From contig NZ_AUMJ01000004.1 of the NCBI RefSeq assembly GCF_000430625.1, forward strand, positions 62,001 to 126,000: 64,000 bases of DNA. The letters run 5' to 3'. The DNA comes from Aneurinibacillus terranovensis DSM 18919. GTDB lineage: Bacteria > Bacillota > Bacilli > Aneurinibacillales > Aneurinibacillaceae. Below, in pieces: positions 8,017 through 12,402 of the stretch (position 1 is the stretch's first letter; every line of letters starts with the position of its first letter). The notes below the pieces were generated by a model. The model saw only the letters and a list, made by a program, of their open reading frames with translations, was not told the origin of the DNA and made no database searches. Made by a program: the position numbers and the translations under genes.

Positions 8017-8646
8017 ATGGAAACAGCGAAACAAATTGCCGGGAAGCTTTTAGAGATTGATGCCGTGGCTTTGAGGCCTGATGAACCCTTCACGTGGACA
8101 TCCGGAATTAAAAGCCCGATTTACTGCGATAACCGGCTTACCATGTCCTATCCCGAGGTGCGCCGCATGATTTGTCAGGCATTCGCCGCGCGAATCCGCG
8201 AGACGTTCCCGGATACAGAAGTAATCGCAGGCACTGCCACCGCCGGGATCCCGCATGCCGCATGGCTTGCAGAGGAACTGAACCTGCCAATGATTTATGT
8301 GCGCTCTAAGCCAAAAGGCCATGGAAAGGAAAATCAAATCGAAGGCAAGCTCGTTAAGGATGCCAAAACGATCGTAATTGAAGATTTAATCTCGACAGGC
8401 GGAAGCTCGATTGAAGCCGCCCAGGCGGTGCAGAAGGCAGGCGGCATCGTGCAAAGCGTGTTAGCAATTTTCTCCTACCAGTTTCCGCAGGCGGCGGAAG
8501 CCTTTGCGGCAGCGGGCATTCCGTTTGAGACATTAAGCCATTACACCGCACTTCTACAGGTAGCCGAGGCGAGAGGCACCATCCGCCCCGACCAGCTTGA
8601 TGCCCTTGCCCGGTGGAAAGAAAACCCCGCAGATTACTGGAAGTAA
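8017..8646 (+). CDS. pyrE: Orotate phosphoribosyltransferase
   Basis: PyrE transfers phosphoribose from PRPP to orotate, giving OMP. The 209-residue product contains the type I PRTase PRPP loop in VIEDLISTGGSS and the flexible-loop segment RSKPKGHGKENQIEG. The gene begins two bases after pyrF; its ribosome-binding site AAGGAG is inside the pyrF end. It is the last gene of the operon, since the next gene is convergent and a hairpin with flanking A and T runs follows within 45 bases. Confidence 0.96.
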   Translation: METAKQIAGKLLEIDAVALRPDEPFTWTSGIKSPIYCDNRLTMSYPEVRRMICQAFAARIRETFPDTEVIAGTATAGIPHAAWLAEELNLPMIYVRSKPKGHGKENQIEGKLVKDAKTIVIEDLISTGGSSIEAAQAVQKAGGIVQSVLAIFSYQFPQAAEAFAAAGIPFETLSHYTALLQVAEARGTIRPDQLDALARWKENPADYWK

Positions 8647-8689: not shown

Positions 8690-8723
8690 AAAAAAGTGGA
8701 CCGCTAGCGCAGTCCGCTTTTTT
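8690..8723. terminator. Bidirectional terminator between pyrE and the flippase gene
   Basis: A hairpin pairs AAAAAAGTGGAC with GTCCGCTTTTTT (one G-T pair) around a ten-base loop. The A and T tracts on the two sides let it work for both the pyr operon and the convergent minus-strand gene, whose stop codon falls inside the structure. Confidence 0.85.
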
Positions 8724-10671
8724 GTTGTTCAGTATAAGCGGGGACGATTCGGTAGTGGGAAAGGAACCGGTAGGCCCGCTGTGCAGCACGCGGTAAATAT
8801 TGAATTTCGTTCATATCAATTCCTTTTAACCAGAACAAAGTCAGGGCGTATGCGGACATACTAAAAACAGCAATAAGCCCTGACTCTATTCCGTAGAAAA
8901 GAAAATCGGGGACGTGAATGGCGGGCCTGATTTTAAGACCCAGTTTTACTAATAGGCCGCCGATCGCGACAAGCAGGAAGGAGGCGGCGATAAATGCGCG
9001 CCATCTTTCCCCGAGTATCGTTAGCGGTGCGTATCGGTGAATCGCACGAATATTAAGCACCATCACAATCACAAAGCAAAGCGTGGTAGACAGGATAATT
9101 CCATAGATGCCGAATAAGGGAGCGAAAATATAATTCCCAATCCATTTCACAACCACGCCGATGGCCACATAAAACATCGGCAGGTCACTGCGTCCGAGAC
9201 CCATCAAAATCCCATTCGATGTCATCATCATATTCTGAAAAATGGTACCGAAGCAAAGAGCCGCAATAATATACGAGCCTTGGACAAAGATATCGCTCGT
9301 ATTGTGGTATAAAAATCCGTTTATTGGCAGAGCCGCCACCGTTAAATACAGCGCTGCAGGCACACCCGTCAACAGTGCCAATCGCAGAGCCAACGAGCTC
9401 ATGCGCTGTACTTCCCCTTTGTCTCGTCTTGAGTGGGCAGCGGAAACCACCGGAATAATCGACACGCTTAACGCTGTGGCGAGAATAATAGGCAGGCCGG
9501 CAAGAGGCTGAGCACTTCCTGACAGAATCCCGTTGAGGACCATCGCTTTATTATACTCATGAAGCTGGTCGGTGAAGAACCGCTGGGGAACCATTGCAAT
9601 CCCGTTCTTGTATTTCAAAAATCCAAGATTCTTTTGATTCACCACCACTTTCTGGTTCACTGCCAGCCAGACGTTTGTTTTTCCCCACACGACATGCACG
9701 TTTTGTCCCGTTTTATCCCATGTGATCGTCGCCCCCAGCGGTTTTCCTACACTTTCCAAGGGAACCATTGTCACGTTGTGGTCCAGCGACGGAGCGACAG
9801 GAAGTTCCACACTTTTTCCGGCTATCATCGCCGTTTTATTGTTTAATGTAAACGAAACGCGCTCATTGACGGGCGTTAAAAGGCGGAGGCCTGTCGATGA
9901 ATCGATAAAATAGAGGGCGGGAACGGCAAGGGACGTAAGGGTAATCGGAATCGATAGTTTAAGCAGCCTTCCATATATCTCCCGGTAAGTAAGAATCGTG
10001 TATTTTTTTTGTAAGGCCAGCTGTTTCTTCTGTTTTGGACGGTGATTTTTATAGAAGTAGATCATCACGGCAAGAGCGGCTACGCTTCCGGTGAACGCGC
10101 CAAACGACGCCCCTGCGACTGCGACATCCTTGTTGTAACCTAGGTATAATAAAATCAGTGGAAACAAAACCGCGGTTATTACGCGAAAAACCTGTTCATT
10201 GATCTGGGACAGTCCTGTTGGGTGCATCAGCTGCTGACCCTGAAAATAACCGCGCATGATTGCAATTAACGGAAATAACACCAGGGCCGGAGCAATCGCT
10301 TTGATAGCCAGTTCGGACTGTGGTGCCAGCGTGTAATCCGCATAATAGGGAGCGATCAAATATAATAACGCCGCCATAAATACGCCGCCCACGAGCGTGA
10401 AATTGCGGGCGGCTTTGTATGTTTGATAGGCCTCATGGTATTTTCCGACGGCTGTATAACCGGCTACCTGTTTGCTTAGCGCGCTTGGAATGCCAAGCGT
10501 CGCAATCACGAAAAGTATGTTATATACATTATACGAAATGCTGTACAAATTCATCCCGTCATTTCCCATAATATGCTGCAGGGGTACGCGCTGGATGACG
10601 CCGAGCAGGCGGGCAACCACAGCCGCCATTGTTAAAATAAGCGTACCTTTCAAAAAAGACTTATTAGACAT
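8704..10671 (-). CDS. MOP-superfamily lipid flippase (SpoVB/YtgP-like) with an inserted stalk domain
   Basis: The protein belongs to the polysaccharide biosynthesis/lipid II flippase group related to SpoVB, YtgP and MurJ, which move undecaprenyl-linked precursors across the membrane. Some 12-14 membrane segments are visible; the N-terminal half covers about residues 10-260. Between segments 7 and 8, roughly residues 270-372 form an extra soluble domain that matches the copper amine oxidase N-terminal-like domain: motifs MVPLESVGKPLG, ITWDKTGQNV and AMVPQRF. Removing it leaves about 555 residues, near the usual size of YtgP. With the N terminus inside, the insert faces outward. ATG at 10671 is preferred over 10677 because GAGG then has proper spacing. 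It follows rqcH by 12 bases, so the two form an operon. Substrate and role are inferred. Confidence 0.88.
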   Translation of the reverse strand: MSNKSFLKGTLILTMAAVVARLLGVIQRVPLQHIMGNDGMNLYSISYNVYNILFVIATLGIPSALSKQVAGYTAVGKYHEAYQTYKAARNFTLVGGVFMAALLYLIAPYYADYTLAPQSELAIKAIAPALVLFPLIAIMRGYFQGQQLMHPTGLSQINEQVFRVITAVLFPLILLYLGYNKDVAVAGASFGAFTGSVAALAVMIYFYKNHRPKQKKQLALQKKYTILTYREIYGRLLKLSIPITLTSLAVPALYFIDSSTGLRLLTPVNERVSFTLNNKTAMIAGKSVELPVAPSLDHNVTMVPLESVGKPLGATITWDKTGQNVHVVWGKTNVWLAVNQKVVVNQKNLGFLKYKNGIAMVPQRFFTDQLHEYNKAMVLNGILSGSAQPLAGLPIILATALSVSIIPVVSAAHSRRDKGEVQRMSSLALRLALLTGVPAALYLTVAALPINGFLYHNTSDIFVQGSYIIAALCFGTIFQNMMMTSNGILMGLGRSDLPMFYVAIGVVVKWIGNYIFAPLFGIYGIILSTTLCFVIVMVLNIRAIHRYAPLTILGERWRAFIAASFLLVAIGGLLVKLGLKIRPAIHVPDFLFYGIESGLIAVFSMSAYALTLFWLKGIDMNEIQYLPRAAQRAYRFLSHYRIVPAYTEQQKSGLR

Positions 10672-10683
10672 AACCATTCCTCA

Positions 10684-12402
10684 TTACGCATTTTTTGTTT
10701 CGAGTAGTCTTCGAATAATGGAACCATCCGGTGTGATAAACAGCGTTTTTTGCTGCTCATAAACCACAAACCCGGGTTTCGTCCCTTTGGGTTTTTTCAC
10801 GTGCCGGATTGCGGTATAATCCACAGGAACCTGGCTGGATTCTCGGCCTTTACTGAAGTAAGCAGCCAATTGGGCGGCTTCATACAGCGTAGCTTCACCA
10901 TACGACCGGCTGCGAATCACAACGTGGGATCCGGGTATGTCCTTCGTGTGAAGCCATGTGTCATCGGCATCCGCCAGCTTATTCGTCAGAAAATCATTTT
11001 GCCGGTTGTTTTTCCCGACCAAGATCGTAATTCCTTCACTCGATTGATAGTGTTCGACCGCGGGTGCTTTCGGCTTCACTTTTCGGTTGTTTTTGATATG
11101 GCGTGCCCGGATATACCCTTGCTCTACCAATTCCTCGCGGATTTCTTCAATATCCTGTAGGCCCGCGCCTTCAATCTGCTGCAGGATCGTATCCAGATAT
11201 TGTACTTCCTGATAGGCGTGTTCGATCTGTTCATCGAGTACAGCCAGGCTGTTTTTCGCTTTTGTATACCGCTTGAAAAACGCCTGGGCATTCTCAGACG
11301 GTGATAAAGCAGGATCGAGCGGGATCGTAAGCATAGGCGATCCTTCCTCGTAGTAGTTTAACACGTTTGCTTCTGTTTGACCTCTTTTTAATTGATAGAG
11401 ATTGGCCGTCAGCAGTTCTCCATACTGCTGAAAACGCTTGGCGTCCTCCGCTTCCAGCTTTGTTTGCTGCAGTTTGTCAATTTTTTTTGCGTTTTTATTC
11501 CGCTCGTTGCTAACAAGGCGAATTAAGTCATGAAGCCGCTGCTTTACCGTATCACGCTCGGCTTTACCATAATAAAAAGCTTCCAGACATTCGCTGATAC
11601 TGGTAAAGGTTTCACTGGTCCCTTCCGATAGATGAGTTAGGGGGACCACGGAGAAAACCGCTTTTTCCCCATATTGAATCGTTGGCGTATACTGATGGTT
11701 TGCCACGGGCTCGAATACGCTGCGAAATGCGTTCCACAATGCCTCCCGTGTGGCAAGGCGGGCCCTGTATGTGATTTCATTGGCGATCAGGGGGCTTACA
11801 CCGGCGAACCGGGCGACAATCTGTTTGTTGAGTTTTCCCTGATTGAAATCAAGCGTACGGATAAACGTATCGCCATCTACAGTTAATGGATTCCTTTTCC
11901 CCTGGGAAGGGGGGGCGATATACATTCGGCCCGGCAGAACGACACGGTGCTGGCTGATCGCGGGTGTGACATGGTGGAGGCCGTCATGGATAATTCCGGT
12001 CTCCGGATCCAGTAGAATGAGATTGCTGTGCCGTCCCATAATCTCCAGTACAAGCCTCTTACGGCGGTCATCGCCTAACTCGTCCCGGCTCTTTATGTTG
12101 ATATGCACGATTCGCTCCATCTCAACCTGCGTGATCGATTCGATGATAGCACCCTCACAGTATTTGCGCAGAAGCATACAAAACATCGGGGGTTCCATCG
12201 GATTCTGGTAGTCTTTACGCGTCATATGAATGCGCGGGAAACTGTGGCTCGCGGAAAGCAACAGGCGGACATTTCCGGTGCGCGTGCGTATTTGCATAAT
12301 GATATCGGTTGCGGTGGGTTGGTACACTTTATTAATGCGCCCGGTTACGAGCGGGTTAAGTTCATGAACAATAGCTCTTGTTACAATGCCGTCAAAGGCC
12401 AC
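10684..12402 (-). CDS. rqcH: Rqc2 homologue RqcH (NFACT, formerly FbpA/YloA)
   Basis: RqcH binds stalled large ribosomal subunits and recruits alanine tRNA to add C-terminal alanine tails to the blocked peptide, marking it for proteolysis. The 572-residue protein has the NFACT-N domain (starting MAFDGIVTRA, with PPMFCMLLRKYCEG and IMGRHSNLILLD), a central coiled coil of about residues 280-420 and the NFACT-R domain with WLHTKDIPGSHVVIRS. The position next to the calcium ATPase gene matches yloA-yloB in B. subtilis, but here the two are divergent. Older annotations call it a fibronectin-binding protein. It is the first gene of a two-gene minus-strand unit. Confidence 0.93.
   Translation of the reverse strand: MAFDGIVTRAIVHELNPLVTGRINKVYQPTATDIIMQIRTRTGNVRLLLSASHSFPRIHMTRKDYQNPMEPPMFCMLLRKYCEGAIIESITQVEMERIVHINIKSRDELGDDRRKRLVLEIMGRHSNLILLDPETGIIHDGLHHVTPAISQHRVVLPGRMYIAPPSQGKRNPLTVDGDTFIRTLDFNQGKLNKQIVARFAGVSPLIANEITYRARLATREALWNAFRSVFEPVANHQYTPTIQYGEKAVFSVVPLTHLSEGTSETFTSISECLEAFYYGKAERDTVKQRLHDLIRLVSNERNKNAKKIDKLQQTKLEAEDAKRFQQYGELLTANLYQLKRGQTEANVLNYYEEGSPMLTIPLDPALSPSENAQAFFKRYTKAKNSLAVLDEQIEHAYQEVQYLDTILQQIEGAGLQDIEEIREELVEQGYIRARHIKNNRKVKPKAPAVEHYQSSEGITILVGKNNRQNDFLTNKLADADDTWLHTKDIPGSHVVIRSRSYGEATLYEAAQLAAYFSKGRESSQVPVDYTAIRHVKKPKGTKPGFVVYEQQKTLFITPDGSIIRRLLETKNA

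Follow-up and report, generated by a model that had tools for sequence, protein, structure and literature searches.

The flippase locus

The window analysed here, a stretch of 64,000 nucleotides from Aneurinibacillus terranovensis DSM 18919, carries on its reverse strand a gene for a SpoVB-type flippase that is interrupted, between the seventh and eighth predicted membrane segments, by a stalk-type domain of Pfam family PF07833 (Table 1). A sequence-only reading of the same DNA had set this gene at 8704–10671; the span is a real open reading frame, although position 10671 corresponds to Met3, at which the flippase orthologues start, and the first ATG opens the frame at 10677. Both flanking genes were named from sequence and gene order, the upstream one being presumably rqcH-like and the convergent one, we assume, pyrE. 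At the loci examined in the family the flippase gene is likewise bordered by a convergent pyrE on one side and by an rqcH-like gene and a P-type ATPase on the other, except that pyrE was not found within the stretch read of one contig from a metagenome-assembled genome (MAG). The surroundings of the flippase are different in the sister family and beyond.

Table 1. Positions in the window of the flippase gene, its parts and its neighbours.
Feature	Position	Strand	Basis or remark
Whole flippase gene	8704..10677	-	657 aa from first ATG; orthologue start at Met3, 10671
N-terminal flippase part, residues 9-261, TM1-TM7	9895..10653	-	PF01943 match
TM7 (predicted), residues 241-259, C-terminal residue Asp259	9901..9957	-	Hydropathy
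Inserted segment, residues 271-375, 105 aa	9553..9867	-	Missing from extra-family orthologues and from paralogues
PF07833 stalk-domain match, residues 285-372, profile positions 2-93 of 108	9562..9825	-	Pfam and fold
C-terminal flippase part, residues 393-577, TM8 onward	8947..9501	-	PF03023 (MurJ) match
rqcH-like gene (presumed), upstream, 6 bases from flippase ORF	10684..12402	-	Order kept in family
pyrE (presumed), convergent neighbour, end of pyrimidine operon	8017..8646	+	Order kept in family

Identity and limits of the inserted domain

The N-terminal part of the protein matches PF01943 (E 3.7e-23, 82.8 bits against a cut-off of 28.2) and the C-terminal part PF03023, the MurJ family (E 1.1e-14). 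The intervening match to PF07833, titled "copper amine oxidase N-terminal", reaches E 6.6e-22 and 77.9 bits against a cut-off of 24.2, and by these scores and coordinates the match is well beyond chance and falls between the lobes of the flippase. It is one of 14 PF07833 matches found by a profile search of the whole genome. Among the NCBIfam equivalogs, SpoVB (TIGR02900) scores 230.9 bits, under its cut-off of 372.3, and MurJ (TIGR01695) 41 bits against a cut-off of 235.55, so that the protein belongs to neither equivalog.

Alignment with insert-free orthologues gives the junctions as ...DSSTGLRLLTP / 271-375 / YNKAMVLNGIL..., with no evident loss of the flippase body at either side. Without the insert the protein has 552 residues, a normal length for its family; across the carriers the insert measures 105–113 aa and the remainder of the open frame 551–556 aa, while the open frames of most insert-free homologues measure 535–566 aa. 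The PF07833 match ends at profile position 93 of 108 and the TM8 segment follows on VPQRFFTDQL, so that the domain is incomplete, the final strand pair of canonical copies being replaced by the run into TM8. Interruption of a flippase by a PF07833 domain, as the sequence-only reading had proposed, is confirmed by Pfam, hydropathy and fold. The motifs that it had quoted (MVPLESVGKPLG, ITWDKTGQNV and AMVPQRF) all occur in the flippase frame, its limits of 270–372 were correct to within 3 residues, its statement that the length without the insert is that of the family holds, and the domain search that it had suggested returned the significant PF07833 match flanked by PF01943 and PF03023.

Structure prediction, also suggested there, assigns the insert to the fold class of the amine oxidase N-terminal domain. 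Modelled on its own with AlphaFold, the insert takes a confident β-rich fold (pLDDT 83, pTM 0.75), and E. coli amine oxidase accounts for all of the model's best 18 Foldseek matches in the PDB (E 2e-3 to 4e-2, probability 1.0), with a TM score of about 0.5 on the query, by which the fold class is clear and the E-value modest; sequence searches of the PDB using the insert alone gave no significant match. In a full-length model built from a 7-sequence alignment the insert is again β-rich, with short helices, at a pLDDT of about 76–83, and the body is weak (mean pLDDT 52), for which reason the orientation of the insert over the cavity was left unread. Despite its weak body, this model matches MurJ (Foldseek E 3.6e-5), and it also matches amine oxidase chains over about 71 residues. 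Residues 270–372 are neither membrane helices nor an ordinary loop, either of which would have told against the domain, and are modelled instead as a folded β-rich unit.

With the SpoVB/YabM group (PF01943, TIGR02900) the flippase shares the sequence of both lobes, 14 predicted segments and its length minus the insert, but it differs in the 105-aa soluble domain of loop 7-8, in forming a separate clade and in its sub-cut-off SpoVB equivalog score. With MurJ (MviN type, PF03023) it shares the fold match and an HMM match from TM8 onward; unlike MurJ, it stays under the TIGR01695 cut-off, and the genome has a separate MviN-type protein. We know of no inserted soluble domain in the corresponding loop of the matched solved MurJ chains. 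Exported, wall-associated proteins are known to carry PF07833 domains (PMC4137172), and the insert resembles these domains in its profile match, in the repeated VPL...G..(V/I)TWD motifs and in fold class, whereas here the domain sits inside a polytopic carrier and has no last strand pair. In the genomes examined the domain also occurs in an exported protein that we take by eye to be amidase-like. No published description of a PF07833 domain in a flippase was found in the openly accessible literature, outside which most subscription papers lie, and searches on stalk-domain proteins, domains inserted in MOP carriers and Aneurinibacillus flippases gave nothing on point; domain databases may list the architecture uncommented.

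Topology and position relative to the outer gate

Hydropathy predicts 14 membrane segments, as fits the roughly 12–14 of a SpoVB-type flippase with two lobes and a MurJ/MATE-like fold, and the insert follows the seventh. Loop 6-7 holds 10 K/R and 1 D/E, which by the positive-inside rule places it inside and the insert-bearing loop 7-8 outside, and the insert itself has no membrane-like stretch (highest 19-residue hydropathy mean 0.69). Together with MurJ homology, the charge distribution supports, as a prediction, the earlier view that this loop faces outward, so that the insert would lie outside the membrane.

In MurJ, straightening of TM7 drives the transport cycle, residues close to where TM8 starts make up the periplasmic gate, Gly245/Ser248 bonding to Asp39, and Asp235 is a residue of the Na+ site (PMC6465408). 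The HMM alignment to solved MurJ chains spans TM8 onward, and counting back along it, the insert would end just before the counterpart of Gly245/Ser248. Asp259, at the end of TM7 and before the insert, is invariant in the protein alignment (A6, where it is numbered D258 in the first row) and is, by the same register, the likely counterpart of Asp235.

Distribution, history and selection

The insert is present in all 11 genomes examined of the family, which comprises Aneurinibacillus and its kin, and the ten other copies are 59–74% identical to that of the window. Its carriers include Aneurinibacillus sp. Ricciae_BoGa-3, A. tyrosinisolvens, A. thermoaerophilus, A. aneurinilyticus, A. danicus and one MAG labelled Paenibacillaceae. 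In the sister family of the same order, an orthologue (45–59% identity) occurs in 4/4 genomes, each time without the insert, which is also absent from orthologues of more distant families and from the genome's own SpoVB and YabM paralogues. The proposed check of related genera thus found it in every family genome examined and in none outside.

When 400 genomes of the class were searched, full-length matches were confined to the 11 family genomes. The other strong matches consist of a separate N-part, ending near residue 259–275, and C-part, starting near 375–379, which adjoin wherever both are listed. A profile of the junction, run against 399 genomes each of the phylum and of the order of genome G017, gave no match spanning the junction; its matches were to the insert only (other PF07833 proteins) or to TM8 only (flippases without insert). 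Both the class and the junction searches scored a few top candidates in each genome, and a rare second case may therefore exist elsewhere; classes other than Bacilli were sampled mainly through the phylum junction search, and the search in the class of G472 reached 3 genomes. The phylum match in G472 proved to be an exported, PDZ/protease-like protein that carries stalk domains, not a flippase with insert, and frames of unusual length in G388 and G047, considered as further carriers, have no insert.

In a tree of 33 proteins the insert-bearing sequences form one clade (100/100), adjoined by the sister-family orthologues (100/100), the two being joined at 95/93; four other insert-free orthologues fall outside both, and the SpoVB-like and YabM-like paralogues form separate groups apart from the flippase clade. 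Given this placement, a single gain on the family stem would suffice, and the distribution indicates that the insert is fixed and old in the family. Identical junctions in 11 genomes rule out an artefact or misassembly. A recent origin by transfer from one of the genome's own stalk proteins was rejected: outside copies in the order score no better than E 2.7e-14, against 2.5e-41 or lower within the family, and these PF07833 copies are too distant for a donor to be named.

In three close pairs (G005/G008, G004/G002 and G003/G004) dN/dS is about 0.03–0.10 for the insert and about 0.02–0.03 for the body, and over 55 pairs the insert averages 54% identity and the body 76%. These values point to purifying selection on the insert, though less than on the carrier body. 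Its net charge ranges from -7 to +6 across the family and, given also the faster evolution, no strongly conserved surface is seen.

Carrier role and genomic context

The protein is a SpoVB-type member of the MOP superfamily and on homology would act as a flippase. The genome encodes two further relatives, named by eye from their sequence and gene order: a SpoVB-like one in a tgt/yajC/secDF neighbourhood, as for syntenic SpoVB, and a YabM-like one between spoVT-like and mazG-like genes. The separate MviN/MurJ-type protein (PF03023 E 9.5e-78; L132 5629-7203, G000 C18:31727-33046) is encoded in what is presumably a polysaccharide cluster, with glycosyltransferase-like and CsaB-like genes named by eye; owing to this cluster it may serve surface polysaccharide, instead of or besides peptidoglycan. 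Amj (PF10997), an alternative lipid II flippase, was not found in the window's own genome. Across the order Amj is patchy, occurring in 4/15 genomes, all four in the Aneurinibacillus family. The idea that the flippase described here is the sole lipid II flippase was dropped, as the genome, though without Amj, also encodes the YabM-like, SpoVB-like and MviN-type proteins.

In family f5 an insert-free orthologue stands beside a DUF456-like membrane protein, a HAD-like hydrolase and two PBP-like genes (L125 5349-12616, L089 6020-13815; named by eye), a neighbourhood that would fit a peptidoglycan role for the flippase clade. A distant homologue in family f18 lies near gmk-, coaBC- and priA-like genes (L123 5334-6959); in other Bacilli such a neighbourhood is found near rqcH, a possible sign of an ancient common locus. 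The other flippases of the genome, the absence of Amj and the PBP-like neighbours in f5 make a wall precursor the likely cargo, possibly lipid II.

Proposed function of the insert

We propose that in the ancestor at the family stem a SpoVB-type flippase of lipid-linked oligosaccharides gained one PF07833 domain in its outward TM7-TM8 loop. In the unchanged transport body, a rocking of the two lobes would carry an undecaprenyl-linked wall precursor (lipid II or a relative) across the membrane, while the insert, outside the membrane beside the outer gate and connected through short linkers with the ends of TM7 and TM8, would offer a docking surface that holds the exit side of the carrier near a wall-building partner, be it a polymerase, another envelope protein or the wall. 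This extracytoplasmic docking module is the favoured reading because PF07833 is found in exported wall-associated proteins and has a known contact domain among its members, and because the insert is retained in 11/11 genomes with dN/dS below 1. It is nevertheless a guess, with a probability of roughly 0.45, and against it stand a gene order (pyrE, rqcH-like) that points to no wall partner, the faster evolution of the insert and its variable charge. That the insert goes further, as a built-in coupling domain that hands lipid-linked cargo to the wall machinery or is gated by it, joining export and use, is distinctly unlikely.

The main rival, although itself improbable, is that the insert pairs two flippase molecules outside the membrane. 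Such a part is played by the PF07833 domain of the Paenibacillus lautus Cu/Zn-SOD (PDB 8IMD), a dimerisation module that stabilises its host protein (PMC10432803). That domain belongs to the same Pfam family and is likewise a contact domain added to an ordinary protein, but it is terminal rather than inserted and its host is soluble; 8IMD appears among the matches of the insert at levels that are not significant (sequence E 1.7; Foldseek rank 25, E 1.0), and the final strand pair that canonical copies have is missing from the insert. We consider it similarly improbable that the insert is a compact domain tolerated in a permissive outer loop, folded only to spare the carrier and with no job of its own. 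Its evolution, faster than that of the body, and the relatives that manage without it would agree with such a passenger, whereas its retention in 11/11 genomes, never lost or frayed, its near-constant length (105–113 aa) and a dN/dS well below 1 would not.

It is less probable again that the insert serves as a lid or brake on the outer gate, altering the transport cycle or the choice of cargo. It does link TM7 to TM8, both tied to the cycle and gate of MurJ (PMC6465408), and hardly any linker separates the second motif of the domain from the TM8 segment; insert-free orthologues, however, are common and presumably work, and the weak body model does not allow the insert to be placed over the cavity. 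A sensor or metal site, suggested by the family name, by the predicted outside location and by the earlier reading, is very improbable: no conserved metal or ligand site was found in the insert, which has no conserved Cys and at most 3 His per copy, none invariant, on which grounds a copper or metal site was rejected, and in amine oxidase itself the N-terminal domain is not known to hold the copper site.

Significance

To our knowledge, MOP flippases are nearly bare of soluble domains, and their placement beside the enzymes that use their cargo is unsettled. The flippase of this family is predicted to carry an extra folded domain beside its exit gate, where no other relative examined carries one. 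Such an insert could serve as a natural fiducial in structure work, and even if it is only a passenger, it would still mark the TM7-TM8 loop as a tolerant site for tags. As a natural soluble domain by the exit gate that is fixed in one family but missing from the sister family, it would allow a clean deletion test of the tethering of flippases to the wall machinery.
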